In this document: in pieces, positions 14,461 through 47,050 of the stretch
Layout of the letters: every line of letters starts with the position of its first letter
Numbering within the stretch: the first letter of the stretch is position 1
Source of the DNA: Bacteroidales bacterium
GTDB taxonomy: Bacteria; Bacteroidota; Bacteroidia; Bacteroidales; P3
DNA length: 47,050 bases
Direction of reading: 5' to 3'
Assembly (NCBI GenBank): GCA_017446745.1
Contig: JAFSQF010000068.1
Span: 1 to 47,050 of the forward strand
Translations under genes and position numbers: made by a program
Notes under the pieces: model-generated
Database searches by the model: none
What the model was told of the DNA's origin: nothing
The model's input: the letters and a program-made list of their open reading frames with translations, nothing else

Positions 14461-14607
14461 GAGCCCCGTAGGGGCGGCATATAATAGCCGTGGGCGAAAG
14501 CCCACGGTATAAACCAGGCAGTTACATTGAGCCCCGTAGGGGCGACATATTATAAATAATAATCCAAATAGCATCACAATATGTAAACTATTTTTGCACG
14601 ATTACTT
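14461..14607 (+). repeat. Hairpin repeat copy R2, nearly identical to part of R4
   Basis: Two GAGCCCCGTAGGGGC signatures lie at 14461-14475 and 14529-14543. Between them CCGTGGGC-GAAA-GCCCACGG (14488-14507) forms an 8-base stem with a GNRA tetraloop. The following segment to GCACGATTACTTA is nearly the same as 39171-39252. It includes a TATTTTTG -7-like box at 14589-14596. The repeat fills the gap between apbE and yicC. Confidence 0.85.
14589..14596 (+). promoter_or_regulatory. Repeat-borne -7-like box upstream of yicC
   Basis: TATTTTTG fits TAnnTTTG, 49 bases before the yicC start, and lies inside the R2 repeat. The same box occurs in copy R4 upstream of another gene. No good -33 TTTG is present. 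Confidence 0.4.
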
Positions 14608-14645
14608 ATCATTGATAATAAACCATTAGAATAATAAAAAAGAGT

Positions 14646-15512
14646 ATGAAATCGATGACAGGATTTGCCAAAGGGCAATATAAAGGCAAAACAAGGTGTT
14701 TGCTGGTAGAGATAAAAAGTTTGAATGGCAAACAGCTGGATGCCACCGTGAAGGTGCCACAGAAATACAAAGAGAAAGAATTGGCTATCCGTTCCATGCT
14801 TACAGGCCTGGAACGTGGGAAGATAGACTTCGCACTGACAGAAGAGACCGATAATGCCAGCTCTACCAGCTTAAACAAGAAAGTTGTGGCCGTGCGCTAC
14901 GAAGAGGCCATGAATTTGGCAAAGGAGTTAGGAAACCCGATAGCTGGCGAAAAAATGCTGGAAATAATACTAAGGCAAACCGACGTATGGGGCACCGAAG
15001 ATAGTGGCGAGACCGACGACACCGAGTGGAAAGCAATCGAAGAAGTGATTGCCGAGACCATAGGCGAACTTGACCTGTCGAGGAAACACGAAGGGGAGAT
15101 AATGAAAGAGGATATCGTCAAACATATAGACGAGATTGAGAGGCTCTCGAAAGAAATACCACAATATGAGGGCGAACGCATTGATACAGCAAAGGAACGC
15201 ATACGCTCGTGGCTAAAGGACAGCGGAGTGGAAGTGGACGAGAATCGTTTCGAACAGGAGCTAATATACTATCTGGAGAAGTTGGACATCACCGAAGAGA
15301 AGGTGCGTCTGGCAAAACACATAGGCTACTTCAGAGAGGTTATGAATGGCGAGGAGAGTTGCGGAAAGAAATTAGGATTCATAGCTCAGGAGATGGGAAG
15401 AGAGATAAACACGACAGGCTCAAAAGCCAACCATGTAGAAATACAGCGTCTGGTGGTGGGCATGAAAGACGAGCTGGAGAAGATAAAGGAGCAACTGGGA
15501 AATATCTTGTAA
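14646..15512 (+). CDS. yicC: YicC/YloC family endoribonuclease
   Basis: Members of this family are endoribonucleases implicated in RNA turnover. The N-terminus MKSMTGFAKGQ is the diagnostic YicC opening. The C-terminal half carries the DUF1732 signature, seen here as GFIAQEMGREINTTGSKAN followed by VEIQRLVVGMKDELEKIKEQ, ending close to the canonical C-terminus. Length is 288 residues, as expected. In many bacteria gmk follows yicC; here a repeat array follows instead. Confidence 0.94.
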   Translation: MKSMTGFAKGQYKGKTRCLLVEIKSLNGKQLDATVKVPQKYKEKELAIRSMLTGLERGKIDFALTEETDNASSTSLNKKVVAVRYEEAMNLAKELGNPIAGEKMLEIILRQTDVWGTEDSGETDDTEWKAIEEVIAETIGELDLSRKHEGEIMKEDIVKHIDEIERLSKEIPQYEGERIDTAKERIRSWLKDSGVEVDENRFEQELIYYLEKLDITEEKVRLAKHIGYFREVMNGEESCGKKLGFIAQEMGREINTTGSKANHVEIQRLVVGMKDELEKIKEQLGNIL

Positions 15513-15530
15513 ACCTGAGTTCGTCAGTTT

Positions 15531-15771
15531 CGGTTGCGTCGGATTTCGGTTGCGTCGGATTTGCAATCCGACGCAAAATATTATAAGGATTTTTAATCCG
15601 CAAAATAACGGATTCGGTTGCGTCGGATTTGCAATCCGACGCAAAATATTATAAGGATTTTTTAATCCGCAAAATAACGGATTCGGTTGCGTCGGATTTG
15701 CAATCCGACGCAAAATATTATAAGGATTTTTAATCCGCAAAATAACGGATTAAAAATCCTTATTGTAACGG
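15531..15771 (+). repeat. Tandem array of a 68-bp palindromic unit, three copies plus a partial
   Basis: A 16-base partial start at 15531-15546 is followed by units at 15547-15614, 15615-15683 (one extra T) and 15684-15751. Each unit contains GCGTCGGATT-TGC-AATCCGACGC and one arm of the ATAAGGATTTTTAATCCG stem; only the last unit is followed by the complementary arm. The sequence on to about 15842 matches the interior of element E1 (9456-9536). Short peptides that could be read from it, with reiterated NPYNILRRIANPTQ, are not credible genes. The gap 15513-15947 holds this array, its E1-like tail and the terminator below. Confidence 0.9.
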
Positions 15772-15870
15772 TAAAAAAATAATGTGTGTATCGATAGTGA
15801 TGTAAAAAATGCAACTATAATTCGTGTAAATTCATTTTTGTTGGTGAGATTTGTGGCTGAATCAAACACC

Positions 15871-15921
15871 ATACAAAAAAGCCCACGTTGGCAGTTGCCT
15901 CGGCAACTTGCAACGTGGGCT
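15871..15921 (-). terminator. Intrinsic terminator after the 1603-residue T9SS gene
   Basis: On the - strand AGCCCACGTTG and CAACGTGGGCT pair perfectly across 11 bases, with an inner stem AGTTGCC/GGCAACT, and are followed by TTTTTTG. Confidence 0.85.
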
Positions 15922-15947
15922 AAGGAAGTTATCGGGAAGAACGGCGT

Positions 15948-18900
15948 CTAAAGAACGACAACGCGTTGCACCGTACCGTCGGAGGCTTTGACTATGTAAA
16001 TGCCAGCGGCTGGAACCGTGTAGCGTTCTTCGTGCCGGGCCTGGTCGGTGGCAAAGAGCCGGCGTCCGATGGCATCGAAGATGAACAGCGACTGGGCATC
16101 GGCACCGACCACAACGATATCGGAATGCTGTGTGGTAACGATGATGCTCGACCCACCTGCCTGGTCTATACCCTCCTGACCGTCGGCAAAAATGGCGGTG
16201 AAGGTTGTGTCGGAGGTGACAGTGACTAAGCGTGGATTGCTCTGGTCACCATCATCCCAACCTTCGAAGTTGTAGCCTGAATAACTTATTGCTGTGAGCT
16301 CTGCCACGTCGCCATAGCTGTAGGAGCCGCTGCCCTCCACGTATCCCATGGCTGGGTCATTGACATTGACCGTCACCATATAATTAGCCTCAGGGTTATT
16401 GAAGAAGACTTCCACCAATGTAGTGCTGTCGGCAACGAAACTAAGTATATAAGCAGTCATCATCTCTCCTGCTTCTTCAAAATCGACAGTGTCGAGCATA
16501 TCCACCATATCCACCTGGCCAACATAGACATGCGACAAAACACTTCCCATATTGGGCATGAAACCTAACATTACCTCCTGACCCTGAGTATAGAAGAGGC
16601 TTTGGCCGCAGACATTCTCTATGCTATTAGGTGTCAGAACGATACCCTCGCCATCTCCTAAGCACTGGATGTCTACTATAACTGGCTCCTGCAGGTCGGT
16701 GACTGTGAATGCCTTTATCATCCATGACACATAAAAATAATCATCGTCCCCCGAGCTGAGAACTGGGGCTACAAAGACTCCGTTTCCATTAAGGTCAATA
16801 AGGCAGCTATTGGTGTCGCCCGTGAACTGGGTGACGCTGATAGGATAGGCTATATCGGTGGTGTGGAGCAGAATCCAGAGGCTTTGGCTCTGGTCGATAT
16901 CAAGATCCATACCCGGGTCAAAGTCGTACCAGACATTGGTGTCGGTAATTGTGTAGCTTTGTTGGAAAAGCATGGAATCGGGGGTGTCGACACCTCCCTG
17001 ATAGACCATCAGCTCGTAAGAACCTGCCACCGCAATGTAAGCGCTGACATAAGCAAGGCGGTCGCGGTCAACGAGCATTGCGGGCTCGAAACGTATGCCC
17101 CATGTCACTTCATCGTCTATACCAACATTACCCAAGGGATAATCTTCAATGCCATAGCTTAGCTCGTCACCCTGCGACTCGGCAACAGTGACCGTGATAG
17201 TGTCGGAGACAACATCGCCATTAAGCATGGCCGTAACGGTGACCATATAACTGCCTTCGCTGTTCCAAGAGGTGGTAACAGTCTGACCCGTAGCTGTGGA
17301 CGGTGCGGCTCCTTCGAAGGTCCAAGTATAAGTGGCTCCGGCAGCACCGATGGCGGTAAATGTGGCAGGTTCATAGGGTGCCACTACTGAAGGACCATTA
17401 ATACTAACCTGGAGGTCGAAACCTGAGGTGATTGAGATATCGTCGATTAGCAGCCAGTACATATCGCTGACATTGTGGTGACGGAAAGCGATATAGACAT
17501 CCTGATTGTCGAAGTTTTCAATGGAAGCGGTGCATTGACGCCACGAATCGGTGGTGATGCCGCTCCAAAGCTCAGTGGTGAAGTCGGTGGTGGCACCGGT
17601 AGCGGAAGAGATCATGACTGAGTAATACTCGTTGGCGTAGTTGGCATCAAGTCCTTTGTCCCACCAGGTGATGGTGGCACCGCCTGTGGGTATATGCACC
17701 TTGGGCAGGACAACCCAGTTGTCGGGTGTCAGAGCACCTACATTATTTATATAAGAGGCCGAGGCCAAGGCATCGCTGCCGGAATGGACGTAACTGCTGA
17801 TGGCATCTCCGGATATCATATTGGATAAGAGAACCCATCCATAGCCGTCAGCGTCAGCGTCGTGTGTAGACATACACTCCAGCGGGTCGCTTGCCTCTGC
17901 CCCGAAGGAGAAGGGCAGCTGATTGACGGGGCAGTCGGCGACGTTCACAGTCATGGAAGCAGAGACGGTCTGCGTGCCCAAAGTTGCCGTGACGGTGACG
18001 AGATAAGTGCCGCCGGCGTTCCATGTGGTACTGGCGCTCTGACCCATCGCGGTGGCGGGTGTCCCGTTCTGGAAAGTCCAGCTGTAAGTGGCCTGGTCGT
18101 AGCCTATGGCGGTGAAGGTAGCCACATCGCCATTAATCACACTCGTGGGGCCGCTGATGCTGACAGTGAGCTGCGGGGTGGTGGGTGTGGCACTTGTCAC
18201 GGCCTTTATCATCCATGTGGGATTGAGGTCGGAGGCGAGGCTCTGGATAGTGTACCAGGTGTTGTCCATAAAGACCATACTGGAATTGGTGTCGCCCGAA
18301 TAAGATGAGTAGGAAGCCGGGTAGTTGATTCCGGTGCAGTGCAGCACTACCCAAAGGTCGTTGCTGGTGTTGAGCGCCACGGTGCTGGACAACGGAAACG
18401 TGTACCAGTCTGAAGATGCGGTGACGTTGTAGGTCTGCTGGTAGATAGGAGTTGAAGGATAGGCACCGGACTGCGGGTTGTAAATCAGCAGCTCGTAATA
18501 GCCCGGATTGGAAATATAGGCCATGGCGGAACTCAGATAGTTGCGGCCCGTCATATACTGCGACGGAATCTTGATGCCCCACGTTATTTCGCCATTGGCG
18601 CCAATACCAATACCACTCTCATACACGTCGTCACCGCAATAGCTGATGGTATCGCCCCAGTTCCATGTCACCGTAGTGTCGCCGGGCGTAGCACCTCCGG
18701 CAGTGATACTGATGTCGTCGATTAGCACCCAGTAGTAGTCGGTGCAGTTATAATGACGGAAAGCGATATTGATGTTCTGATGGGCATACGCTGCCGGTAT
18801 GGTTACCGTTCGTTGTGTCCAGTTGCCATCGGACGAGGGTGTGCCATACCAAAGCAGTGTGGTGAAATCTGATGTGGAGGTACCGTTTATTGAAAGCAGA

Positions 18901-20759
18901 ACCTCATAATAATCTTCGTAGTAGTTATTATCAAAAGCCTTGTCATACCATGTCATCGTGGCGCCACCCGATGGTATAGCCACAGCCGGCAAAATCATCC
19001 AGTTGTCTGGATTGATGGCCCCAACATTATTGATGTAGGAGGCCGACATAATGCATTCACTGCCGTTGTATGCCACCGCAGAGGAAGTTACCGCGCTGGA
19101 AAACAGCCACCCATAGCCATCGGTATCGGCATCGACAAACGACAGGCACTGAATGTCTTCATCGGCCTCGAAACCCATAGTGTAGGGCAGTTGATTGACA
19201 GGGCAGTCGGCGACGTTCACAGTCAAGGAAGCAGAAACGGTCTGTGTGCCCAAAGTTGCCGTGACGGTGACGAGATAAGTGCCGCCGGCGTTCCATGTGG
19301 TGCTGGCGCTCTGACCCGTCGCGGTTGCGGGTGTCCCGTTCTGGAAAGTCCAGCTGTAAGTGGCCTGGTCGTAACCTATGGCGGTGAAATTAACAACATC
19401 GCCTACCATCACACTCGTAGGGCCGCTGATGCTGACAGTGAGTTGCGGGGTGGTGGGGGTGGCACTTGTCACGGCCTTTATCATCCAGGTGGGATCGAGG
19501 TCGGAGGAGAGGCTCTGGATGGGAGTCCAGGAGCCATTGTAAAGAATCAGACTGGAATTGTTGTCACCGACATAGGTGCAGTAGGAAGCCGGATAACTCA
19601 CACCATTACAATGCAGCACAATCCAGAGGTCGTTGGTTGTGTCTATCTGCACCATAGAGAAGAGCGGGAAACTGTACCAGTCGTTGGAGATGCCGACGTT
19701 GTAGGTCTGCTGATAGATGGGTGTTGATGGGAGGCTGTCGGGAGCGGGGTTGTAGACCAGCAGCTCATAGTCGCCGGGATTGGAGATATAGGCCATGGCG
19801 GAGCTGAGGTAATTGCGTCCGGCCATATATTGCGCCGGGATGCGGACACCCCACGTAATTTCACCGGTAGAGCCCAAGCCTATCGCGCTGCTGTAATCAC
19901 CGTTGCCGCAATAGCTCATGGTGTCGCCCCAGTTCCACAACTCGCGCACATTGACGATAAGGGTGCCGGAAGTGGTGCGGCTGATGCCGTCGCTGCCCAG
20001 GTTGGTGACAGCGCAAGTGACGGTCTTGATGCCGGCGGATGACCATTGCACAACTATATCCTCGTTGACGTTTGCAACTACAGTACCGCCGTCGACATCC
20101 CACGCATAGCTTGTGACGGGGTCGATACTGACAACATTGGCCGTCAACGGAACGCTCGTATTCAACATAACGTTGGCCTGGCCTGAGAGCTCTACAATCG
20201 GGGCATGGTTGGCTTGTGGAACACTGAGGAGCACATTGCTGACCGAGGTGACGGCAGCGGAAGCATCGTAGGGACCGAAGCCCCAGTCGGTGCCATAAAG
20301 TTCGCACCAATAGCCCGAGGGCGAAATGAAAATGATAGTGGGATAGGCAGCTACGCCTCCTATAATGTCAGCGCAGTTGGCATCGTTGATGATTGGGAAT
20401 GGCACAGTACCGCCGCTGGTCCAGTCGCCCTGGGTGTTGTTCCCAGTGCCATAGATGTCAGCATTGGTTGTGGTAGGATCGACAAAGGCAAGCAAAACGC
20501 AGACCTGGCTGCCCAACGTGTTGTGGATGGCTTCCATGACACCATTGGTGTGCACTGCCCAGCCCCATGTATTCCACGCGGCTTCGTACTGAATCACCAC
20601 GGCCTTGCCGGCGGCAAGGGTGTCGGCCAAACTGACGGTGTTGCCATTGATGTCGCTGGTCGTGAAAGGCGTGCCCATCATCTGCCAGTGTGGTGTCTGT
20701 TGGGCATGAAGAGCAAAGCCCACAAGCAGCGCGACAAAAAGGGTAAAGATTTTTTTCAT
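15948..20759 (-). CDS. Large T9SS surface protein with thioredoxin-like, PKD and cleaved-adhesin domains
   Basis: The 1603-residue protein opens with a signal peptide (MKKIFTLFVALLVGFALHAQ). Residues 25-185 resemble the thioredoxin-fold domain of Bacteroidales surface proteins, but the usual CxxC site is replaced (AAWNTWGWAVHTNG). A PKD-like domain follows at about 195-270. Two near-identical composite units (about 273-697 and 699-1120) each contain a carbohydrate- or ligand-type beta domain (NWGDTMSYCG), a PKD domain (ATYSWTFQNGTPATA) and a gingipain-type cleaved-adhesin domain (NPDNWMILPAVAIPSGGAT). A third, diverged unit starts near 1200. Near 1500 there is an InlB-like repeat (YNFEGWDDGDQSNPR). 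The C-terminal 70 or so residues form a T9SS sorting domain. An adhesion or extracellular binding role is inferred. Confidence 0.88.
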   Translation of the reverse strand: MKKIFTLFVALLVGFALHAQQTPHWQMMGTPFTTSDINGNTVSLADTLAAGKAVVIQYEAAWNTWGWAVHTNGVMEAIHNTLGSQVCVLLAFVDPTTTNADIYGTGNNTQGDWTSGGTVPFPIINDANCADIIGGVAAYPTIIFISPSGYWCELYGTDWGFGPYDASAAVTSVSNVLLSVPQANHAPIVELSGQANVMLNTSVPLTANVVSIDPVTSYAWDVDGGTVVANVNEDIVVQWSSAGIKTVTCAVTNLGSDGISRTTSGTLIVNVRELWNWGDTMSYCGNGDYSSAIGLGSTGEITWGVRIPAQYMAGRNYLSSAMAYISNPGDYELLVYNPAPDSLPSTPIYQQTYNVGISNDWYSFPLFSMVQIDTTNDLWIVLHCNGVSYPASYCTYVGDNNSSLILYNGSWTPIQSLSSDLDPTWMIKAVTSATPTTPQLTVSISGPTSVMVGDVVNFTAIGYDQATYSWTFQNGTPATATGQSASTTWNAGGTYLVTVTATLGTQTVSASLTVNVADCPVNQLPYTMGFEADEDIQCLSFVDADTDGYGWLFSSAVTSSAVAYNGSECIMSASYINNVGAINPDNWMILPAVAIPSGGATMTWYDKAFDNNYYEDYYEVLLSINGTSTSDFTTLLWYGTPSSDGNWTQRTVTIPAAYAHQNINIAFRHYNCTDYYWVLIDDISITAGGATPGDTTVTWNWGDTISYCGDDVYESGIGIGANGEITWGIKIPSQYMTGRNYLSSAMAYISNPGYYELLIYNPQSGAYPSTPIYQQTYNVTASSDWYTFPLSSTVALNTSNDLWVVLHCTGINYPASYSSYSGDTNSSMVFMDNTWYTIQSLASDLNPTWMIKAVTSATPTTPQLTVSISGPTSVINGDVATFTAIGYDQATYSWTFQNGTPATAMGQSASTTWNAGGTYLVTVTATLGTQTVSASMTVNVADCPVNQLPFSFGAEASDPLECMSTHDADADGYGWVLLSNMISGDAISSYVHSGSDALASASYINNVGALTPDNWVVLPKVHIPTGGATITWWDKGLDANYANEYYSVMISSATGATTDFTTELWSGITTDSWRQCTASIENFDNQDVYIAFRHHNVSDMYWLLIDDISITSGFDLQVSINGPSVVAPYEPATFTAIGAAGATYTWTFEGAAPSTATGQTVTTSWNSEGSYMVTVTAMLNGDVVSDTITVTVAESQGDELSYGIEDYPLGNVGIDDEVTWGIRFEPAMLVDRDRLAYVSAYIAVAGSYELMVYQGGVDTPDSMLFQQSYTITDTNVWYDFDPGMDLDIDQSQSLWILLHTTDIAYPISVTQFTGDTNSCLIDLNGNGVFVAPVLSSGDDDYFYVSWMIKAFTVTDLQEPVIVDIQCLGDGEGIVLTPNSIENVCGQSLFYTQGQEVMLGFMPNMGSVLSHVYVGQVDMVDMLDTVDFEEAGEMMTAYILSFVADSTTLVEVFFNNPEANYMVTVNVNDPAMGYVEGSGSYSYGDVAELTAISYSGYNFEGWDDGDQSNPRLVTVTSDTTFTAIFADGQEGIDQAGGSSIIVTTQHSDIVVVGADAQSLFIFDAIGRRLFATDQARHEERYTVPAAGIYIVKASDGTVQRVVVL

Positions 20760-20900
20760 AATGAGGATGTATTAGTTAGTGCCGTGGTTCCGTAGGGCAC
20801 TTTAACGAACCTAGGGGAGGCGGAACCCAAAGCATAAAGTGGTAAACACCAACAAAATGCAACGTATCTCCCCTATATTTCATATTGTTGTTTAAGAGTG

Positions 20901-20908
20901 CAAATATA
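20901..20908 (-). promoter_or_regulatory. Probable -7 box of the 1603-residue T9SS gene
   Basis: On the - strand TATATTTG fits TAnnTTTG. It predicts a leader of roughly 135 bases. A -33 TTTG at standard spacing is not seen. Confidence 0.45.
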
Positions 20909-21000
20909 TGAATTATCCGCAATATATCATATCATTGGACAAAAAAAAACAGCCGTCAGAATTAGACAACTGTTTTTAAACAACTTAACAATCATCAAAA

Positions 21001-21268
21001 AATAAGTTGATACAATAAAGCCCCGGAGGGGCTTACTCTCAATAACCCCGCACATAGTGTGGGGCTGCTGACAACCAATATTCTATGCGTTTCGTAGAAA
21101 CGCGCTCTCATTCGTGTAAATTCATTTCGCCTGCGAAAAAAAATAGTTCTATATTCAGTGTTTTATATCTTGAAAATCATGTAATTCGTGCTAATTCGTG
21201 CTAATTCGTAGACCTATAAACACTATCGTTTTATTTTTTTTGCGCCTACCTGATTGTATCAACTTATT
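21001..21268 (+). mobile_element. TIR-bounded hairpin element E2
   Basis: The ends AATAAGTTGATACAAT (21001-21016) and ATTGTATCAACTTATT (21253-21268) are a perfect 16-base inverted repeat. Inside are AAGCCCC-GGA-GGGGCTT (21018-21034), CCCCGCAC-ATA-GTGTGGGG (21046-21064) and GCGTTTC-GTA-GAAACGC. The rest matches element E1 except that E2 lacks the nested 68-bp-type module. It is non-coding. With the - strand leader and the short AT-rich 5' region of the next gene, it accounts for the gap 20760-21412. Confidence 0.8.
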
Positions 21269-34994: not shown

Positions 34995-35125
34995 AGCCCC
35001 GTAGGGGTGAAGAAAGAGCCAGTGGCTCTTTCGATAGCGAAGCGTAGAACAAAAAAATAATAGCCGTAGGTGTAAACCCACGGTAGAAAGCGATAAGTAA
35101 TATTGAGCCCCGTAGGGACGACATA
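34995..35125 (+). repeat. Hairpin repeat copy R3, composite form
   Basis: The copy starts with AGCCCCGTAGGGGTGAAG. It then has a perfect stem AAAGAGCC-AGT-GGCTCTTT (35013-35031) and the tail TTCGATAGCGAAGCG. Next is CCGTAGGT-GTAA-ACCCACGG (35064-35083), the counterpart of the GNRA hairpin of other copies with one A-C mismatch. A second signature GAGCCCCGTAGGGAC ends the copy. It sits in the divergent interval between the T9SS gene and the TPR lipoprotein gene. That 502-base interval otherwise holds only the T9SS promoter. Confidence 0.85.
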
Positions 35126-35225
35126 CATGATTAATAAACTTAAAGAAATCATCTGAAATAAATAATAAAGAATGCTACAATATATTAAAGCCATAAAAGA
35201 GATGTGCGAGTTGAACCATAGGCTG

Positions 35226-38624: not shown

Positions 38625-39071
38625 ATGTCGATATTTGACAATGAAGACGAATACTATATGCGCGAGGCATTGCGTGAGGCACAAGCGGCACGCGACGAGG
38701 GCGAGATACCTATTGGCGCCGTGATTGAGTGCGGCGGAAGAATTGTGGCTCGGGCACACAACAACACCGAGCGATTGCACGACGTTACGGCACACGCCGA
38801 GATGGTGGCATTCACTGCAGCAGCGAATACCCTGGGAAGCAAATATCTGCCCAACTGCACTTTATATGTCACGGTGGAGCCATGTGCCATGTGCGCCGGC
38901 GCTGCCGGCTGGACGCAAGTGGGCCGTATTGTGTATGGCGCTCCCGACGAGAAACGCGGCTTCAGCAAACTCGGACGTGCGATGCTGCACCCTAAGACGC
39001 AGCTCTCACCCGGTGTACTGGAGGAGGAATGCAAGGAACTTATGACAGACTTCTTCAAAGGAAAACGATAA
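38625..39071 (+). CDS. tadA: tRNA adenosine(34) deaminase TadA-like nucleoside deaminase
   Basis: TadA converts A34 to inosine in tRNA-Arg(ACG). The 148-residue protein has the cytidine deaminase fold. Zinc ligands are His57, Cys87 and Cys90 (motifs TAHAEM and EPCAMC), with Glu59 as proton shuttle. The opening YYMREALREAQAARDEGEIP, GRIVYGAPDEKRG and the C-terminal region are typical of TadA. A guanine deaminase or another nucleoside deaminase is possible but less likely given the length and motifs. Confidence 0.92.
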   Translation: MSIFDNEDEYYMREALREAQAARDEGEIPIGAVIECGGRIVARAHNNTERLHDVTAHAEMVAFTAAANTLGSKYLPNCTLYVTVEPCAMCAGAAGWTQVGRIVYGAPDEKRGFSKLGRAMLHPKTQLSPGVLEEECKELMTDFFKGKR

Positions 39072-39075
39072 CGAC

Positions 39076-39297
39076 AAAAAAGAGTAACGATATTCTGTCA
39101 GAGTGAGCCCCGTAGGGGCGGCATATATTAGCCGTGGGCGAAAGCCCACGGTGTAAACCAAATAGTTACATTGAGCCCCGTAGGGGCGACATATTACAAA
39201 AAACAATTCTAAATGACATCCCTAAAATGTAAACTATTTTTGCTCGATTACTTAGCAAGTTTATTTTATTTTGAATGTCTGATTGTATCAACTTATT
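39076..39297 (+). repeat. Hairpin repeat copy R4
   Basis: Two GAGCCCCGTAGGGGC signatures (39105-39119 and 39173-39187) flank CCGTGGGC-GAAA-GCCCACGG (39132-39151). The copy continues with the same segment as R2, including a TATTTTTG box at 39235-39242. It ends with ATTGTATCAACTTATT (39282-39297), the right terminal repeat of elements E1 and E2. The left end GAGTAACGATATTCTGTC is a degenerate form of that in R5 and R6. It fills the gap between tadA and the nucleotidyltransferase gene. Confidence 0.85.
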
Positions 39298-39345
39298 TAT
39301 TAATTATTGCATAATCAACAAAAAAAAATAAACATAATTATTATT

Positions 39346-40236
39346 ATGAAACCTACATTATTAGTATTGGCGGCCGGAATGGGAAGCCGCTATGGAGGAC
39401 TGAAACAGATGGACGGAGTAGGCCCCAACGGAGAAATCATCATGGACTACTCAATAGAGGATGCCATCCGAGCCGGATTCGGGAAGGTAGTCTTCGTGAT
39501 ACGGAAAAGCTTCGCCGACGAGTTCAAGAAAAAGATAAATGCCGAGCACTTCGGAGGCAGAATTGCCGTTGAGTATGTATACCAGGAGCTTGACTGCCTG
39601 CCAGAAGGCTTTTCCGTGCCCGAGGGCCGCGAGAAGCCGTGGGGCACCAACCACGCCATCCTGATGGCTAAGGACGCCATCAAGGAGCCTTTTGCAGTAA
39701 TCAACGCCGACGACTTCTACGGCAGAGACGCTTTCATGGTGATGAGCGAATACCTCCAAGGACTGGACGGCAAGAAAGGCAGCTACTGCATGGTGGGCTA
39801 CCGCCTGGAGAACACCCTGTCGGAGAACGGCACGGTGAGCCGCGGCGTCTGCGAGGTGGACAGCGAGGGCTTCCTGAAAGGCATGACGGAACGCACTAGC
39901 ATTGGCCGCACCTCCAACGGCATTGAATACAAGGACGATGACGGCACATTGCATCCTCTTCCCGGCGACGCCACGGTGTCGATGAACCTGTTCGGATTCA
40001 CTCCAGACTACTTCGAGGAAAGCGAGAAACTCTTCGTAACCTTCCTGAAAGAACGCGGGAATGAGATGAAGTCGGAATACTATATCCCCTACGCGGTGAA
40101 CACTTTCCTGAACAATGGCTACGCCAAGATGCGTGTGCTGAAAACTTCAGCGCAATGGTTTGGGGTGACCTACAAGGAAGACCGCCCGATGGTGGTGGAA
40201 CGCCTGCGGAAACTTCATGAGCAAGGTGAGTATTGA
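39346..40236 (+). CDS. NTP_transferase family nucleotidyltransferase
   Basis: This is a GT-A fold sugar-phosphate nucleotidyltransferase of 296 residues. The nucleotide-binding signature is LVLAAGMGSRYGGLKQMDGV at the N-terminus. The metal-binding DD pair is in FAVINADDFYGRDAFM near residue 125. Downstream, GVCEVDSEGFLKGMTERTS and VSMNLFGFTPDYFE follow family patterns. The start is MKPTLLVL; the 13 in-frame codons upstream are low-complexity and lie against the repeat. Substrate cannot be told from sequence. No sugar-biosynthesis or capsule genes are adjacent. Confidence 0.9.
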   Translation: MKPTLLVLAAGMGSRYGGLKQMDGVGPNGEIIMDYSIEDAIRAGFGKVVFVIRKSFADEFKKKINAEHFGGRIAVEYVYQELDCLPEGFSVPEGREKPWGTNHAILMAKDAIKEPFAVINADDFYGRDAFMVMSEYLQGLDGKKGSYCMVGYRLENTLSENGTVSRGVCEVDSEGFLKGMTERTSIGRTSNGIEYKDDDGTLHPLPGDATVSMNLFGFTPDYFEESEKLFVTFLKERGNEMKSEYYIPYAVNTFLNNGYAKMRVLKTSAQWFGVTYKEDRPMVVERLRKLHEQGEY

Positions 40237-40300: not shown

Positions 40301-41542
40301 ATGATTGAAGAGCGTACTATCAATGGGATACTGACATTTGCCAATGAGCATGAGGGCGACGATGTGGTGAGGCTGCTGCTTCAGAAAGAACGGTATCCCG
40401 ATATGGACTTGCGATTTGCAGTACAGCAGATTGAGGGGCGGCGAGTTGCGGCAGAGAAATGGCCGGGGCTTGCCGCCCATCGGTCATACCTTTTCCCTCC
40501 GAAACTGAACAGGGAGCAGAGCTCGAGCGAAGCTACGGCAAAGCTGAAAGGAAGAATAGCGGAAAGGGTGATGGCCTTGCAACTGTGTTGCAACACCTCT
40601 AACGGGAGTGTGGTGCGGCACCTGGCAGACCTGACGGGAGGCATGGGGGTGGACACTCTGGCTCTTGCCACAAGCATGGATGGAGCAGTGGAGGTGGACT
40701 ATGTGGAAATGGATGCGGAGCTATGCTCTCTGATGGAGTATAACTGCGGAATTCTGGGGGTTAAGAACATTAGGGTGCATCAGGCGGAGAGTATGCACTG
40801 GCTGGAAGATAGGACGGAAGTCTACGACCTGATCTACATCGACCCGGCAAGAAGAGACCGGAAAGGGAGGAAGGTGACGGCCTTTGAGGACTGCACTCCC
40901 AACTTTTTAGAGCACCTGGGGTTGCTCTGTAAACATTGCCGGTGGCTTATGGTGAAGGCCTCACCGATGACCGACATCCATGCCGGGTTGGAAGAGCTTG
41001 GCGGGGTTGTAGAGGTGCACGTGGTGGCCGTGAAGGGAGAATGCAAAGAGCTGCTTTTTGTGTGCGGAGCATCAGAGGGCGAGGCAAGGATTGTATGCCA
41101 CAATTTGTGGAATGGCTACGATGAGGCTTTCGCCTTTTCCTTTAGCGAAGAGGCAACAGCATCGGTAAGCTTTGCAAAAGCAATGGACTATATCTATGAA
41201 CCGAATGCCGCAGTAATGAAAGCCGGCGCCTTTAGGCTTGTGGGCGAGAAATGGGGCGTGGCTAAGCTAAGCCAAAACACACATCTTTACACCGGCGAAC
41301 GGCTCTTGGAAGGTTTCCCAGGACGGCAGTTCAGGGTTCTGCAAGCGCTGAAGATGTGCAGGAAGGCAATGCACGAAGTCCTGCCGGAGGGCAAGGCTCA
41401 CGTCATGACGCGCAATTACCCTATCAGTGCCGAGGAGCTGCAGAAGAAGCTGGGACTGAAAGAGGGAGGAGAGCTTTTCGTGGTGGCCACGCGCGAAGGA
41501 AGTTGGCTGTGCGAGAAAGCACTGAACGCCCGGCGCGAATAA
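40301..41542 (+). CDS. THUMP-like/PG_1098-type class I SAM methyltransferase
   Basis: The protein has about 413 residues (from MIEERTINGILTF). A GTG 18 bases upstream is an alternative start. It matches the Bacteroidota family with a PG_1098-like N-terminal domain, a Rossmann methyltransferase and a C-terminal THUMP-like domain. Visible motifs are VRHLADLTGGMGVDTLALAT (SAM motif I, near 105), VEMDAELCSLMEYN, LIYIDPARRDRKGRKVTAFE (near 178) and CRWLMVKASPMTDI. The C-terminus is LHVMTRNYPISAEELQKK-like. An RNA or tRNA substrate is likely from the domain, but the target base is unknown. It is convergent with the SDR gene. Confidence 0.87.
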   Translation: MIEERTINGILTFANEHEGDDVVRLLLQKERYPDMDLRFAVQQIEGRRVAAEKWPGLAAHRSYLFPPKLNREQSSSEATAKLKGRIAERVMALQLCCNTSNGSVVRHLADLTGGMGVDTLALATSMDGAVEVDYVEMDAELCSLMEYNCGILGVKNIRVHQAESMHWLEDRTEVYDLIYIDPARRDRKGRKVTAFEDCTPNFLEHLGLLCKHCRWLMVKASPMTDIHAGLEELGGVVEVHVVAVKGECKELLFVCGASEGEARIVCHNLWNGYDEAFAFSFSEEATASVSFAKAMDYIYEPNAAVMKAGAFRLVGEKWGVAKLSQNTHLYTGERLLEGFPGRQFRVLQALKMCRKAMHEVLPEGKAHVMTRNYPISAEELQKKLGLKEGGELFVVATREGSWLCEKALNARRE

Positions 41543-41567
41543 AGAAAGAGCCCGGATGACCGGACTC
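41541..41567 (-). terminator. Likely terminator of the SDR gene
   Basis: On the - strand GAGTCCGG and CCGGGCTC pair with one T-G wobble around TCAT and are followed by TTTCTTTATT. It lies about 58 bases past the SDR stop codon and touches the stop of the convergent methyltransferase gene. Confidence 0.45.
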
Positions 41568-41624
41568 GATGGATGGCGCGCACATGAGAAGCGTGCTGAC
41601 AACAGCAGAATGGATGGCGGAAAT

Positions 41625-42425
41625 CTACATTGGAGAAATCTTGCGCGCAAGTCGGGCTGCAAGCGAAGGACAGAACTGCTTGATATAGGCCATGATGAGC
41701 TCATAGCGTCCCACGAGGACTTCACGTTTTTTGCGATATACAGCACGGACGATTTTTTCTGCCGCCTGCTGAGGGGTGACGCCGCCAGCCTGCCCGGCAT
41801 CCATCTTGCCATGCTGCTTCCCGTCTTTCTCTAGCGCATACTTTGAGATATTGGTCTGTACTCGGCCCGGACAGACTATGGTGACCCTGATGCCCTGCCC
41901 GTAGGTCTCGGCCTGCACGGTTTCAAAGAAACCATAGAGTGCATGTTTGGCAGAGCTGTAGGCACAACGGAGGGGGAAGCCAAAGCGGCCCGCTATGCTT
42001 GTGGTGACAACGAGCTGGCCACTCCCCCGCCCTATCATGCGCGGCAGGATAGCCTTGGTGAGGATTACAGGGGCGAAATAGTCGATATCCATAACTTTAT
42101 GGATTACTCGCATATCGGTATCTACGGTGGTGCCACGCTGCGAAATGCCGGCATTGTTGTAGAGGATGTCGATGTGTCCGAAGGTGTTCCAGGCGTTGTC
42201 GGCAAGAGCGGTGAGCTGGTCGAGGTTGGAGAGGTCGAACGGGAGTGGACAGGCCTCGGGGGCACCAAGGGATTTGCATTTGCTCACGACGGCCTGTAGA
42301 AGGTCGGCTTCGAGTGCGGTGAGGATAAGGCGCGCACCCTCCTGGGCAAAGCGATAGGCTGTAGCTTCGCCGATGCCCGACGAGGCTCCGGTAATCCAAA
42401 CGACTTTATTCAGGAATTTTTGCAT
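41625..42425 (-). CDS. SDR family NAD(P)-dependent oxidoreductase
   Basis: This classical short-chain dehydrogenase/reductase is 266 residues long. The cofactor motif ITGASSGIGEA is at residues 11-21, the NNAG structural motif at 90-93. The catalytic triad is Ser143 (TTSIAG), Tyr156 and Lys160 (YSSAK). After the active site it has the pattern VCPGRVQTNISKYA. The family is too broad to fix a substrate. The C-terminus is basic (LAARLARKISPM) and may contact the membrane. It stands alone, with a hairpin repeat upstream. Confidence 0.92.
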   Translation of the reverse strand: MQKFLNKVVWITGASSGIGEATAYRFAQEGARLILTALEADLLQAVVSKCKSLGAPEACPLPFDLSNLDQLTALADNAWNTFGHIDILYNNAGISQRGTTVDTDMRVIHKVMDIDYFAPVILTKAILPRMIGRGSGQLVVTTSIAGRFGFPLRCAYSSAKHALYGFFETVQAETYGQGIRVTIVCPGRVQTNISKYALEKDGKQHGKMDAGQAGGVTPQQAAEKIVRAVYRKKREVLVGRYELIMAYIKQFCPSLAARLARKISPM

Positions 42426-42456
42426 TTATAGCAATTGATTATAGTAACAGTAAAAA

Positions 42457-42640
42457 AATAAGGTGTAACGATATTCTGTCAAAGTGAGCCCCGTAGGGGC
42501 GGCATATATTAGCCGTGGGCGCGAGCCCACGGGAATCGATATACTCTATTAATCTGAGCCCCGTAGGGGCGGCATATTAAGTAACAGTAAAAAAATAGCA
42601 AGCTTATTTTATTTTGAATGTCTGATTGTATCAACTTATT
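42457..42640 (+). mobile_element. TIR-bounded hairpin repeat copy R5
   Basis: The left end AATAAGGTGTAACGAT (42457-42472) and right end ATTGTATCAACTTATT (42625-42640) match as an inverted repeat at 12 of 16 positions. Inside are GAGCCCCGTAGGGGC (42486-42500 and 42556-42570) and CCGTGGGC-GCGA-GCCCACGG (42513-42532). Just beyond the right end is ATTTAATTATTGCATA, also nearly found after R4. It is non-coding and lies between the SDR and threonine synthase-like genes. Confidence 0.8.
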
Positions 42641-42681
42641 ATTTAATTATTGCATAGTTGGGATAAACACTTCAACAAGTT

Positions 42682-43899
42682 CTAAATGACAAGGGAACGG
42701 AACCATGAGGAACGTGAGGAACCCTCGCCAGTGTTGAGAAGCACGGTGTCGGCGGAATGGATGAGGCCTTTCTCGACGGCTTGGAAGAAGCCGGCATAGC
42801 ACACCATCGAGGCAGGTCCCATCAGGGTGTTCTGGGAGGCAAGCATCTCTTTGCCATAGGCCGGCAGGTCGGCCTCGGAGACGCGGAGGAACGTGCCGCC
42901 ACTGCGACGCACAAGAGGGGCCACGAGCGGGTAGTTGCCAGGATTGGCAGCGGTAAGGATACCTATGCGCGTCTTGATGTCGTGCTTGGCTTCGTATTGC
43001 AGGTGCCATCCCTCGGGGAACCCAGCAGCGGTGGCTTTTTCCCATGCTGTCACCATGGGGTCGCATTCGTCCTGCTGCACCAGGAGCATACGAGGAAGCG
43101 AATACTCAGAATGTTGGGAGGCGGAAAGCACGTTGAGGTCGCGGATGCCTTTCTCAAGGGCAAGAGGGGAAGTGCCACCGGCAACGGCCTGCATATAGAC
43201 CGAGGGAAGACGCCCTATCTGACGGAGACATTCGAACGCCAAGAGCCTTTTGGATTCGATACGCAGGGGGTCGGTGTTGCCTCCACTGATGAGGACATGG
43301 TTGTTTTTATGAAACTCCGCGGCCTCGCGTTTGGCGTCGCCATAGCCGCCCTTCGAAATGACGACGGGCTGCCCAACGCGTCGGATAGCCTCCACGGTTT
43401 CGGGATCAATGCAGTTGGGAGCGAACTCGGTGAAGCGGATGCCGGCCTTGGCAAGGTAGGTGGCAAAGGCCACCCCGGCGTTGCCCGTGGAGGCAAGGCA
43501 ATAGTCCTTTATGCCGTTTTCCTTAAGGACCGAGGCTGCAAGGGCTGCGGAAATATCCTTGAAAGAACCACTGCCAGCATTGCAGTCGTTGCGATATACG
43601 AAGACCTGGCAATCGATGCCGTGCTTTCGCGCATACTCTTCAAGGTTATGCCACCGCTCGATAGCGATAAGCCCTTCGCCAAAAGAAACGATATTCTGGC
43701 GATCGAGGAGCGGGAGGATGTCGAAATAGTAGTCCTGATACGAGTTGGTATGAACCGGGCTGAAGGTGAACGGAACGGCATCGGGGTATTCGACCTCAGC
43801 GTAGGCAGAGCCGCAGGAACACTGTTGGTCGTGTGCGAACCAGGTGGCGAAATCAGGGATGACGCTCCCACATTTTTTGCAACGTAGTTGGTATTTCAC
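42682..43899 (-). CDS. thrC: Threonine synthase-like PLP-dependent enzyme
   Basis: This is a fold-type II PLP enzyme, most like threonine synthase, which converts O-phosphohomoserine to threonine. A zinc-ribbon-like N-terminus has C7, C10, C27 and C29 (LRCKKCGSV, QQCSCGS). The PLP lysine is K114 in NAGSGSFKDISAAL. CLASTGNAGVAFATYLAKAG supplies the phosphate-binding region, and LLNTGEGS-like sequence lies at the end. Length is 405 residues from a GTG start at 43899 that begins at the zinc ribbon. An ATG at 43977 would add 26 poorly conserved residues. Other threonine genes are absent, so a related activity is possible. Confidence 0.82.
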   Translation of the reverse strand: MKYQLRCKKCGSVIPDFATWFAHDQQCSCGSAYAEVEYPDAVPFTFSPVHTNSYQDYYFDILPLLDRQNIVSFGEGLIAIERWHNLEEYARKHGIDCQVFVYRNDCNAGSGSFKDISAALAASVLKENGIKDYCLASTGNAGVAFATYLAKAGIRFTEFAPNCIDPETVEAIRRVGQPVVISKGGYGDAKREAAEFHKNNHVLISGGNTDPLRIESKRLLAFECLRQIGRLPSVYMQAVAGGTSPLALEKGIRDLNVLSASQHSEYSLPRMLLVQQDECDPMVTAWEKATAAGFPEGWHLQYEAKHDIKTRIGILTAANPGNYPLVAPLVRRSGGTFLRVSEADLPAYGKEMLASQNTLMGPASMVCYAGFFQAVEKGLIHSADTVLLNTGEGSSRSSWFRSLVI

Positions 43900-44026
43900 T
43901 GGTGATGGATTTTGATTTAGGGAAAAACTTGAAATCCAGCCCCCACCTTCCGGTATGTTGCAACACCGTTGCAACACCGTTGCAACACACCGGAAAGATA
44001 GGACCGGGGAAAAGGGGGGGGGGAGG

Positions 44027-45289
44027 TTATTTCTTTATGATGTGCATGTCGGGCATGGGTTTGTTGTAGACGCCGGCATCAAGTTTTTTCTTGACCTCAC
44101 GGAAGACCTCGATGGTGCGGTCGGCCTGTTCCATGGTGTGGGCCGCCGTGGGGATGATGCGGAGCATAATCTGACCTTTGGGCACCACGGGGTAGACAAC
44201 GATGGAGCAGAATATGCCATAGTTCTCGCGAAGGTCGACGACGACGTTGGTGCCTTGGTTGACATCGCCGGGGAAGAAGACCGGCGTGATGGGCGATTCC
44301 GTAACTCCGGTGTTGAGGCCCTCGGCCTGGAAAGATTTCTGCAGGTGGTTGGAGATAGCCCAGAGCTTTTCGCGGAATTCGGGGTGCTGGTTGATGATTT
44401 CAAGACGACGCTTGACGCCGTAGACTATAGGCATAGGAAGGCTCTTGGCGTAGATTTGCGAACGCATGTTGAAACGGAGGTAGGTGATGATGTCCTCGTC
44501 GTTGCAGCCTATGAAACCGCCGATGATGGCCATGGTTTTCGCAAAGGCGCAGAAATAGAGGTCAATATCGTCCTCGCAGTGGAAATGGGTGTGCGTGCCG
44601 CGCCCCTCGGGACCCATAACGCCCATACCGTGGGCATCGTCGATAAGGATGCGGAAGTTGAACTCCTTCTTAAGGGCCACAATCTTGTCGAGAGCACCCA
44701 GGTCGCCCTCCATACCGTAGACGCCCTCGGTGGCAACCAATATTCCGCCACCCTGTTTCTCGGCAAGGGCAGTGGCCTGCGTGAGCTGCTTGCGCAGCGA
44801 ATCGATGTCGTTGTGCTGGTATTTGAAACGTTTTGCACCGGTGACGCGGAAGCCATCGATAAGACATGCATGGGCCTCGGAATCATAAACGATGACGTCG
44901 CGCAAAGAAACTATGGTGTCGAGGATAGAGATCTGTCCTTGATAACCGAAATTGAGGAGGTAACCGTATTTCTTGTGAGTGTATTGGCAGAGCATGGACT
45001 CTACCTCTTCGTGGAGCGACGTGTGGCCCGACATCATGCGAGCTCCCATGGGGTATGCGAGACCCCAACGGCGCGCTCCCTCAAGGTCGGCTTCGCGGAC
45101 CTCGGGGAGGTTGGCGAGGCCAAGGTAGTTGTTAAGACTCCAGTTGAGGACTTTTTTGCCATTGAATGTCATCTCCGGGCCGAGCTCGCCCTCGAGCTTA
45201 GGAAAATAGAAATAACCATCGGCGAGTTTGCGGTATTGCCCAAGGGGACCTCCGGTGGACTCTTTGATACGTTCGAAAATATCTTTCAT
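44027..45289 (-). CDS. Alpha-oxoamine synthase, probably serine palmitoyltransferase-type
   Basis: This fold-type I PLP enzyme joins an amino acid with an acyl-CoA. Hallmarks are NNYLGLAN near residue 53, YDSEAHAC with His140 stacking on PLP, ATEGVYGMEGD near 187, LIDDAHGMG with Asp218 and His220, and the Schiff-base Lys251 in FCAFAKTMAIIGG. At 420 residues it is longer than BioF and has an N-terminal extension typical of the Bacteroidota group that includes serine palmitoyltransferase for sphingolipids. 2-amino-3-ketobutyrate CoA ligase (Kbl) or BioF are alternatives. No bio genes or threonine dehydrogenase are adjacent, although a threonine synthase-like gene lies just downstream. Confidence 0.85.
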   Translation of the reverse strand: MKDIFERIKESTGGPLGQYRKLADGYFYFPKLEGELGPEMTFNGKKVLNWSLNNYLGLANLPEVREADLEGARRWGLAYPMGARMMSGHTSLHEEVESMLCQYTHKKYGYLLNFGYQGQISILDTIVSLRDVIVYDSEAHACLIDGFRVTGAKRFKYQHNDIDSLRKQLTQATALAEKQGGGILVATEGVYGMEGDLGALDKIVALKKEFNFRILIDDAHGMGVMGPEGRGTHTHFHCEDDIDLYFCAFAKTMAIIGGFIGCNDEDIITYLRFNMRSQIYAKSLPMPIVYGVKRRLEIINQHPEFREKLWAISNHLQKSFQAEGLNTGVTESPITPVFFPGDVNQGTNVVVDLRENYGIFCSIVVYPVVPKGQIMLRIIPTAAHTMEQADRTIEVFREVKKKLDAGVYNKPMPDMHIIKK

Positions 45290-45403
45290 GACTTATGTAT
45301 AATTAATTAATGATTAAACAGCTATTTAATTGTAAAGCATCCAAGACTGCCCATCTATGTTTCAAGACAACTACAATAACTAAGGGTTTTGTAATTTATT
45401 GTA

Positions 45404-46873
45404 TCACTCAAGGGTGGCGATTTTCATGATGATGGCTTCCAGTTTGGTGCGCATTTGTGAGCCGGAGCAGTCGTAGTCGTTGCAAATGACCGAAAAACAG
45501 AGGCGTTCACCACGCGGAGTGACGACATAGCCGGCAAAAGCACGGACGCCAGTCATGGAGCCCGTTTTAAGACGGACGGAGATATTGGACGGGAGGCCGG
45601 CGAGGATATTTTTTGCCGTGCCGTTCTCGCCTGCAAGAGCAAGACTTTTCTCGAACTGGGGGAAGAACGAGCATCTGGACACCTCGGCAAGAAAGCGGCA
45701 GACGAAGTCGGTGGTGACGCGGTTGCGTGAGCCAAGCCCGCACCCGTCGTCGAGGATAATGCCCGAGGCCTCGAGACGCAGCTTCTGGAAGAAATCGGAG
45801 ACGGCACGCGAACCATTGGCGCGCGTGCCCATACCATAAGCTTTAAAGCCCAGGTAGCGGTGGATGGCCTCAGCATAGAGGTTGTTGGAAGTCATGTTGG
45901 TATATTGAGCCACAAGGGAGTAGTCGGGGGAAGTGTATTCGATGATATTGACGAGGTTGTTGGGGCGCCGCCCATTGTCGATAGGCGAGCCGGTTACGTT
46001 GAGCTGGTGCTGGCGGAGAAACGCGGTGAAGAGCTCCGCGCAGGCCATGGCGGGTTTAGGAAGCGAGGCACGGACGTTGAAATTGCGACCGTCGATAGGC
46101 ATGGTGCCAGAGCAGGTGCGAATGGTGGAGGCCGGGTCGCCATACACCACCACCTGGTCGCCCGAACGGGCAGGGCCTGTCATGACTTCGTTGAAGATAT
46201 GCGTGGTGATGCCTTTGGGCTCGGTGTGCGATATGGTGGCTGGATAACCAACCTTGGAGCCGGGCGAGAAATAGATGAAAAACATATTCTCGTGAAAGTT
46301 GAGAGCGGAGACACCGCAGCCGTAGTAGTTGCCGATGTCGCCCCATTGCCAGGTGTCGTTGACCGGATGGTTGTCGAAGATGGAGGCATCGATGCAGACG
46401 CGCCCGTCGATGGCCTTGATGCCGGCGGCAGTGATGGCTTTTAGCCAGGCGGTGAACAGGGTGTCGGGCTGCGTTTGGCGGTAGCGGTAGGAGCCCAGCA
46501 GTGGGTCGCCGCCGCCGATGATGTAGATGTCGCCATGAAGCGTGCCGTTCTTATCGACAGTGCCGGAGTAGGCCAGATTGGTGCGGAAGCGGAAATTGGA
46601 GCCGAGGCGGTCGAAGCCTGCCGCCGTGGTGAAGAGTTTGGTGAGCGATGCCGGTATCAGGGCGCGCTGCGAATTGTAGGCATAGAGCTGCTGCTTCTTG
46701 TCGAGGCTGTAGACCGATACGGAGAGCGATGCGTGGCGCATCACATCTTCGCGGACCAGCTCGTTGACGGCCTTGGCCAGGGCATCGGTGCGCGTCGGCT
46801 TGCCCGTCTGGGCATGGGCATACAACGCAACGAGAATAAACAGAATGAGGATAGATATATAGCGATGTTTCAT
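45404..46873 (-). CDS. dacB: D-alanyl-D-alanine carboxypeptidase/endopeptidase, PBP4 (S13) family
   Basis: This periplasmic penicillin-binding protein trims or cuts peptidoglycan cross-links. A signal peptide (ISILILFILVALYAHAQ) precedes the mature enzyme. The three penicilloyl-serine transferase motifs are present: SLTK at 76-79 with Ser76 as nucleophile, SNN in MTSNNLYAEAIHRYLG near 330, and KTG in VRLKTGSMTGVRAFAGYV near 440. The long insertion between the first two motifs is diagnostic of family S13. Length is 489 residues, as expected. It is preceded by hairpin repeat R6 and has no obvious terminator. Confidence 0.95.
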   Translation of the reverse strand: MKHRYISILILFILVALYAHAQTGKPTRTDALAKAVNELVREDVMRHASLSVSVYSLDKKQQLYAYNSQRALIPASLTKLFTTAAGFDRLGSNFRFRTNLAYSGTVDKNGTLHGDIYIIGGGDPLLGSYRYRQTQPDTLFTAWLKAITAAGIKAIDGRVCIDASIFDNHPVNDTWQWGDIGNYYGCGVSALNFHENMFFIYFSPGSKVGYPATISHTEPKGITTHIFNEVMTGPARSGDQVVVYGDPASTIRTCSGTMPIDGRNFNVRASLPKPAMACAELFTAFLRQHQLNVTGSPIDNGRRPNNLVNIIEYTSPDYSLVAQYTNMTSNNLYAEAIHRYLGFKAYGMGTRANGSRAVSDFFQKLRLEASGIILDDGCGLGSRNRVTTDFVCRFLAEVSRCSFFPQFEKSLALAGENGTAKNILAGLPSNISVRLKTGSMTGVRAFAGYVVTPRGERLCFSVICNDYDCSGSQMRTKLEAIIMKIATLE

Positions 46874-46903
46874 TACGTAAAGATTATTTAGTTACAGTAA
46901 AAA

Positions 46904-47050
46904 AATAAGGTGTAACGATATTCTGTCAGAGTGAGCCCCGTAGGGGCGGCATATATTAGCCGTGGGCGCGAGCCCACGGGAATCGAAATACTCTATTAAT
47001 CTGAGCCCCGTAGGGGTGAAGAAATATCCAGTGGATATTTCGATAGCAAA
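46904..47050 (+). mobile_element. Hairpin repeat copy R6, cut by the window end
   Basis: It opens with AATAAGGTGTAACGAT (46904-46919), the same left end as R5. Next come GAGCCCCGTAGGGGC at 46933 and CCGTGGGC-GCGA-GCCCACGG (46960-46979). A second signature starts at 47003. The stem AAATATCC-AGT-GGATATTT (47022-47040) and the tail TTTCGATAGC follow. The right terminal repeat is beyond the window. Confidence 0.8.

Follow-up and report, generated by a model that had tools for sequence, protein, structure and literature searches.

Acido-Lenti-1 hairpins of a Bacteroidales genome as probable halves of REP-like mobile DNA elements linked to subclass 1.2 TnpAY1 transposases

Background

Several described systems combine Y1 transposases with short hairpins, and the subject of this paper, a hairpin that recurs in a 47,050-nucleotide stretch of the genome of a Bacteroidales bacterium (GCA_017446745.1, contig JAFSQF010000068.1, positions 1 to 47,050; hereafter the window) and belongs to the family Acido-Lenti-1 (RF01687), shares features with each of them. 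In REP/RAYT systems, the REPtrons, which pair repetitive extragenic palindromes (REPs) with REP-associated tyrosine transposases (TnpAREP), dispersed short palindromes whose hairpin bears a short 5' foot are found inverted around a low-copy Y1 gene, and also in doublets and arrays. Insertion sequences (IS) of the IS200/IS605 group, such as IS608 and ISDra2, carry subterminal hairpins; their transposase, TnpA, is a dimer that reads hairpins in single-stranded DNA (ssDNA), and a short guide next to the hairpin determines where its tyrosine cuts.

TIRtrons consist of Y1 transposases (TIRYTs) flanked by terminal inverted repeats (TIRs), which are dispersed in some genomes, including those of Acidobacteria (PMC3733652). 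In the classification of TnpAY1 proteins of PMC6006769, the 26 described TIRYTs fall into subclasses 2.1, 2.2 and 2.5, and none into subclass 1.2. Members of the latter carry the motif Y---Q--HH, are about 150 amino acids long, occur in few copies per genome and are common in Bacteroidetes; according to the same source they generally lack typical terminal structures, no REP is listed for them in the portion available, and a term search of the available text of PMC8266576 found no mention of the subclass. Class 3 includes about 600 "atypical structures" of the acidobacterium Solibacter usitatus, many dispersed hairpins that also flank a Y1 gene (PMC6006769). Acido-Lenti-1 itself is typed by Rfam as a small RNA (sRNA) gene and was rated likely RNA ("y") in Table 1 of Weinberg et al. 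2010 (PMC2864571), and copies near Tannerella forsythia proteases have been read as possibly regulatory RNA (PMC13298647).

We argue here, from comparisons of sequence, that the Acido-Lenti-1 hairpin instead probably belongs, as one half, to a short mobile DNA element, REP- or TIR-like and acting as ssDNA, which would be spread by a transposase of its own; we put the probability of this at roughly 0.85.

Results and discussion

The hairpin is one half of Acido-Lenti-1 and part of a longer unit

The original prediction had described a 20-nucleotide hairpin at five places of the window, with the loop GAAA at 14488 and 39132, GCGA at 42513 and 46960 and GTAA at 35064. All five are present, and the copy at 35064 has the T-A closing pair and single A-C mismatch reported for it; on the opposite strand this mismatch is a G-T wobble, and all eight pairs form. 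Eight perfect hairpins of 8 bp with a 4-nt loop occur within the window, four of which are this hairpin. Folding covered the three distinct window sequences (14488, 42513 and 35064; the remaining two copies are identical to two of these). The folds at 14488 and 42513 were equalled by none of 200 shuffles on either strand, whereas at 35064 the number of shuffles out of 200 that fold as well is 3 to 15 under DNA parameters and 1 to 4 under RNA parameters.

A search of Rfam, which had been proposed together with a collection of all copies in the genome, did find an existing family. The gathering scan of the window returned RF01687 alone, on the minus strand at four of the five copies, each matching all 46 positions of the model with 55.6-56.4 bits (gathering cut-off 37 bits), while the copy at 35064 failed. 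Genome-wide there are 104 RF01687 matches (E 1e-3), and 62 copies were examined closely. The latter come from a copy finder that required pairing and the CTA linker and imposed no rule on the loop; run over the window and 29 loci of the genome, it gave 67 rows, of which five were discarded by eye as chance hairpins. In contigs C115, C108, C24 and C91 of this genome, several copies are some 60-660 bases away from a contig end; the assembly may break at copies of the element, and copy number may therefore be underestimated.

The hairpin of the original prediction (h1) is the first stem of the RF01687 motif and makes up half of it. Read on the strand used in that prediction, the full unit runs from a second hairpin, h2 (GCCCC-GTA-GGGGC), through a 12-nt linker ending in TAG to h1, which is followed by a spacer and another h2; RF01687 spans h1, the linker and h2. 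Displayed with 75 bases on each side, 58 of the 62 genome copies (the other four are without full flanks) show this longer unit; two contexts are common on its left, and an extra hairpin is optional. The 35064 copy is of the extra-hairpin form, which is why Rfam misses it (RF01687 match absent up to E 5); its extra hairpin recurs in other copies of the genome. Acido-Lenti-1 as found here thus differs from the sRNA gene of Rfam in being part of a longer unit and, as described below, in forming inverted ends of transposase genes.

A subclass 1.2-type transposase lies between matching copies

The genome carries four Y1_Tnp (PF01797) matches and has three transposases of one kind, recognised by a profile (A1) made from eleven related genes, all from loci where flanking repeats had already been seen. 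One of the three, at 83319-83759 of contig C113 and so outside the window, is closely preceded by an RF01687 match on the opposite strand, while a series of copies on the same strand as the gene follows downstream. Its protein has the HUH and Y---Q--HH motifs by which PMC6006769 characterises TnpAY1 subclass 1.2, and it is assigned to this type by motif and length. All eleven rows of the A1 alignment share H54, H56, Y114, Q118, H121 and H122, and a YIxxQ-type motif is found in 52 of 58 tabulated proteins, the other six being fragments or IS200-like. The flanks of the three A1-kind transposases of this genome differ from each other, and a string of the type found at one of them (L001), CCGTTCAATAG, was counted 46 times within 361,871 bases, a figure that includes overlapping loci twice.

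Against solved structures, the best matches of the A1 profile are IS608 TnpA (E 5e-11) and ISDra2 TnpA (2xm3 and its kin, which we take to be ISDra2), so that the enzyme is of the same family by sequence as those of IS200/IS605. It nevertheless falls below the cut-off of the NCBIfam IS200 model (44.6 bits, cut-off 55), and there are many solo ends per transposase here rather than whole IS copies. It also fails the NCBIfam model of class 2 RAYTs, REP_Tyr_transpos (21.9 bits, cut-off 80), and has the class 1 motif Y---Q--HH; the foot of the copies in this genome reads (A/T)TAG, as against GT[AG]G in REP/RAYT systems, and each unit contains two different hairpins. The Solibacter class 3 structures, compared by their description in PMC6006769 only, have the foot CnGA and the motif Y----Q. 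From TIRtrons, the present system may be set apart by the published subclass placement. With TnpAY1 subclass 1.2 it shares motif, protein length, low copy number and abundance in Bacteroidetes, but many members here have flanking hairpin units, and relatives are also found in Acidobacteria, Planctomycetes and others. Y1 genes with inverted repeats are therefore a known kind of system, whereas the combination of Acido-Lenti-1 with subclass 1.2 appears to be undescribed: no link between Acido-Lenti-1 and a transposase is stated in the literature searched, a search to which most subscription papers and all supplements were external.

Motif and transposase occur in the same genomes

In named genomes, a search with A1 yielded at least 573 relatives among 589 stretches. 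The best 80, which were kept, come from Bacteroidota, Acidobacteria, Planctomycetes, Victivallales, Verrucomicrobia, Deltaproteobacteria and others, and 51 of their 80 genomes (30/40 and 21/40) contain RF01687 at E 1e-3, against 0 of 14 control genomes; matches exceed the family cut-off in 18/40 and 14/40. Among Acidobacteriota, motif and A1-type transposase were both found in 25 genomes, the motif only in 10, the transposase only in five and neither in 109 (p 1e-15). The association is weaker in Bacteroidota, where the corresponding numbers are 43, 18, 92 and 143 (p 1e-5).

The elements form mirror-image ends of the transposase genes

A model of the motif (R1), built from 45 RF01687 matches, was run over 161 loci, and for 162 subclass 1.2-type genes full-length matches at E 0.01 within 250 bp of the gene were counted (L265 and L117 were excluded as duplicates). 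A match lies on some side of 96 genes and on both sides of 64, and in 56 of these 64 both h1 stems face inward. The nearest match is oriented with h1 toward the gene in 149 cases and away from it in 11 (143 to 11 without training rows). The density of R1 matches is 2.55 per kb near the gene and 0.16 farther away; outside open reading frames (ORFs) of at least 120 amino acids, it is 3.12 and 0.76 per kb, respectively. Outward-oriented units were observed at a few transposase genes (L135, G547:C1:26444 and G432:C4:175120).

In the 56 inward pairs, the left and right h1 stems of a gene are more alike than those of different genes (12.5 versus 7.7 of a maximum of 16; p 3e-15), and in 26 they are identical; these figures include a few loci, such as L102, L103 and L280, where the simple stem finder chose an evidently wrong hairpin. 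For inverted similarity of the flanks, 42 of 56 related genes from 41 genomes (two of 58 genes had flanks too short to score) surpass the 95% point set by 437 control pairs, although the highest control score, 76, is above many of the 56 and several genes also show strong direct repeats. For the best 80 A1 relatives, the 95% point of 636 control pairs is exceeded in 54, a count that includes two loci (L110 and L140) where only a few codons were read and the downstream flank was misplaced.

The arrangement extends beyond Bacteroidetes. Scored with the RF01687 model itself, six of 17 non-Bacteroidetes loci have inward matches on both sides, in Acidobacteria (L133, L158), Planctomycetes (L118, L175), Akkermansia (L127) and a deltaproteobacterial metagenome-assembled genome (L179), and L172 has a match on one side. 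In a set of 20 Acidobacteriota loci (in which L265 is the gene of L158), RF01687 lies beside the gene in eight, on both sides in four, and all matches have the expected orientation. We consider it likely, though with rather less assurance than for the mobile nature of the element, that the RF01687 "sRNA" is the ssDNA recognition element of a widespread, undescribed REP-like system, one that would provide subclass 1.2 with its missing substrate in several phyla, hairpin and transposase changing together.

A number of observations weigh against the interpretation as a mobile element spread by its own transposase. An A1-type transposase (E 1e-12) is missing from 10 of 35 Acidobacteriota and 18 of 61 Bacteroidota genomes with RF01687. 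Another Y1 type was considered as an explanation for the ten Acidobacteriota; three of them are without any PF01797 match and seven have distant, partial or IS200-like matches only. Conversely, 92 transposase-positive Bacteroidota genomes have no RF01687 match. In the phylum searches, scoring for the motif was limited to the 38 or 20 best first-look candidates of each genome, so that absences are soft. R1 has no match within 250 bp of 66 of the 162 genes, and 11 nearest matches violate the orientation; moreover, the 162 genes were found through A1, itself trained on repeat-flanked loci, and 96/162 is no rate for the subclass as a whole. Among the 17 non-Bacteroidetes loci, six have no RF01687 match (L113, L116, L120, L154, L168, L176), L114 and L139 have one only more than 200 bp from the gene, in L135 it points outward and in L170 orientation is mixed; at L116 (Victivallales), R1 does match inward on either side of the gene, with E 0.006 for the weaker match. 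Between species, insertion was compared at one site (see below). Finally, the sixteen-fold enrichment near the gene is partly due to elements avoiding genes, and is about four-fold between ORFs.

This last point bears on the idea that chance or homologous recombination produced the repeats, the hairpins gathering in arrays and intergenic stretches independently of any transposase. Several copies do stand in tandem arrays or near contig ends, and part of the enrichment is an intergenic effect, but the four-fold part persists when only sequence between ORFs is considered, the mirror orientation and matched ends come in addition to it, and R1 matches nothing in 32 loci whose Y1-type matches are weak or of another kind. 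We regard this explanation as very improbable.

Covariation and loop conservation suit folded DNA as well as RNA

The original prediction had proposed a covariation analysis. Between genomes, covariation is strong in both stems (0.664 versus 0.144 in shuffles; 44 distinct sequences), with changes on both sides at all 13 pairs and 98.6% of cells paired, figures that are biased toward pairing by the fact that the 44 sequences are matches to the model. Within the genome, covariation in h1 is confined to the loop-closing pair (C-G in 46 copies, T-A in 12, T-G in three and G-G in one); the remaining stem changes in the 62 copies are few, each occurring in one to three copies, and mostly uncompensated. 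The covariation between genomes is real, but it cannot distinguish RNA from DNA, and we rejected an RNA-only reading drawn from it as undecidable, since folded DNA fits equally. A preference for one strand based on wobble pairs was likewise dropped, one-sided changes clearly favouring neither.

The h1 loops of the 62 genome copies are GCGA (26), GAAA (14), GCAA (7), GTGA (7), GTAA (3), GTCA (3) and GAGA (2). Preservation of the GNRA tetraloop class, as originally proposed, therefore holds for 59 of 62 copies of this genome, the exceptions being the three GTCA copies, but the rule that all 62 obey is GNNA, and in 46 RF01687 copies across many genomes (some genomes contributing two rows) GNNA is found in 36, GNRA in only 29 and TNNA in 10; 3-nt loops are present at some transposase loci. 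Strict GNRA is thus ruled out as the conserved feature, being broken by 3/62 and 17/46 copies. The sequence d(cGNNAg) is a class of stable DNA tetraloop. The foot, on the strand of the original prediction, is TTAG in 38 and ATAG in 24 of the 62 genome copies; across many genomes, its last three bases are TAG in 37 of the 46 copies, CAG in seven and other in two. Retention of the loop had been contrasted with random decay. The loop is probably retained because the copies stem from templates usable by a structure-reading enzyme and also share descent, which would make random decay the wrong null.

Acido-Lenti-1 could still be a genuine small RNA or mRNA-borne structure that was spread by an unrelated repeat process, with a protein or an RNA receptor as the partner of its GNRA loop. 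The rating by Weinberg et al., the frequency of GNRA in this genome and the strong covariation would agree with this, yet the strand of the Rfam family is not the one that reads GNRA, GNRA fails in the 17 copies just mentioned, and covariation fits folded DNA no less. In addition, the five window copies share one strand while the adjoining genes lie on both, and an RNA gene has no need to flank one type of transposase in mirror image. All this makes an RNA improbable.

Evidence for mobility

The genes apbE and yicC are adjacent in this genome and in all 15 congeners examined (congener ApbE confirmed by tblastn, 46-53% identity). Between the ApbE stop and the yicC start, these congeners have -4 to 73 bp and this genome has 241 bp, an interval that here holds a complete unit (Unit 1 in Table 1); the copy finder detected no Acido-Lenti-1 at this junction in any of the 15. 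On this sequence comparison, Unit 1 is an insertion at a site that is empty in the congeners. Inverted doublets without a transposase gene also occur, at least five with a spacing of 152-153 bp in genome G041 and at least 11 with a spacing of 151-158 bp in G118. They leave no room for a gene and look like non-autonomous doublets, resembling REPINs or miniature inverted-repeat transposable elements (MITEs). The element has thus been observed in dispersed, doublet and array forms, and as inverted copies flanking genes, though not at every gene. The suggestion of a spreading mechanism that reads structure fits well with these inverted copies around Y1 genes, gene-less pairs of constant spacing and an insertion unseen in 15 congeners.

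By analogy with IS608 TnpA and the Escherichia coli REP transposase, the complete system would consist of a small HUH/Y1 gene of the TnpAY1 subclass 1.2 type between two inverted elements with h1 facing the gene, whose product would bind the folded single-stranded hairpins as a dimer. The TAG foot beside h1, on the strand of the original prediction, would be the likely guide, and cutting and rejoining of ssDNA could copy or move solo or paired elements through the genome, the single transposase gene with matching flanks (on C113) serving about a hundred dispersed copies. Binding of h1 by TnpA, the strand used, the place of cleavage and continued movement today are all inferred from these relatives.

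Some mobile elements may later have been co-opted by the host, as terminator, mRNA stabiliser or binding site, which would now preserve stem and loop. This is compatible with a mobile origin, and we consider it possible but rather doubtful. The window copies beside Pfam-supported genes are intergenic, in two cases at some 60 bp upstream of where a gene begins, and a role of REPs as RNA elements has been argued (PMC3733652); against it, orientation in the window is unrelated to that of neighbouring genes, and most h1 changes away from the closing pair are uncompensated, as expected for copies decaying after insertion.

The units of the window and other repeats

The units and related repeats of the window are collected in Table 1. 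The second, related family listed there resembles the repeats around L003, another subclass 1.2-type transposase of the genome, and the L003 type accounts for two window copies. A separate palindromic family, consisting of a TTGCGTCGGATT hairpin and an 18-bp AT-rich hairpin, occupies 9377-9482 and 15545-15787 (four copies, three of them arrayed). The left end of the window (4-270) is a tandem array with a 9-nt period, and a large minus-strand ORF (15948-20759) contains, at 17893-19937, long direct repeats of 300 nt and 191 nt with a spacing of 1272.

Table 1. Acido-Lenti-1 units and related repeats in the window (neighbouring genes by Pfam)
Feature	Position	Strand	Parts	Matches	Setting
Unit 1	14462..14554	-	h2 ~14463-14475; TAG foot 14485-14487; h1 (GAAA) 14488-14507; second h2 inside 14531-14554	RF01687 55.6 bits at 14462-14507; R1 at 14531-14554	between apbE (13367-14404) and yicC (14646-15512)
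Unit 2	39106..39198	-	h1 (GAAA) 39132-39151; second h2 inside 39175-39198	RF01687 56.2 bits; R1	between deaminase gene (38625-39071) and NTP_transferase gene (39307-40236)
Unit 3	42487..42579	-	h1 (GCGA) 42513-42532; second h2 inside 42558-42579	RF01687 56.4 bits; R1	~60 bp upstream of SDR gene (41625-42425, minus strand)
Unit 4	46934..47016	-	h1 (GCGA) 46960-46979; second h2 ~47006-47016	RF01687 56.4 bits; R1 (second h2 at E 0.57 only, yet plain by eye)	~60 bp upstream of peptidase S13 gene (45404-46873, minus strand)
Unit 5, diverged long variant	34996..35128	-	h2 34996-35008; extra hairpin 35012-35032; TAG foot; h1 (GTAA) 35064-35083; second h2 inside 35107-35128	R1 E 1.2e-4 at 35056-35083	
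Partial unit	7598..7651	-	h2 and extra hairpin; h1 absent	repeat family D10; R1 E 0.57 at 7606-7616, weak alone	
Second, related family	21019..21064	-	h2, linker, ACCCCGCAC/GTGTGGGG hairpin	R1 E 1.8e-4	
Second, related family, further copy	9305..9350	-		R1 E 0.095; repeat family D8, 90% identical to 20994-21094	

Conclusion

Acido-Lenti-1 serves as a caution that covariation alone cannot tell RNA genes from folded mobile DNA. If our interpretation is true, it would explain what Acido-Lenti-1 is, would correct an annotation that has been read as possibly regulatory RNA and would give a substrate to a transposase subclass that has been described as generally lacking one. The many naturally paired variants of hairpin and enzyme across phyla would also make the reading of hairpin, loop and foot by HUH enzymes directly testable.

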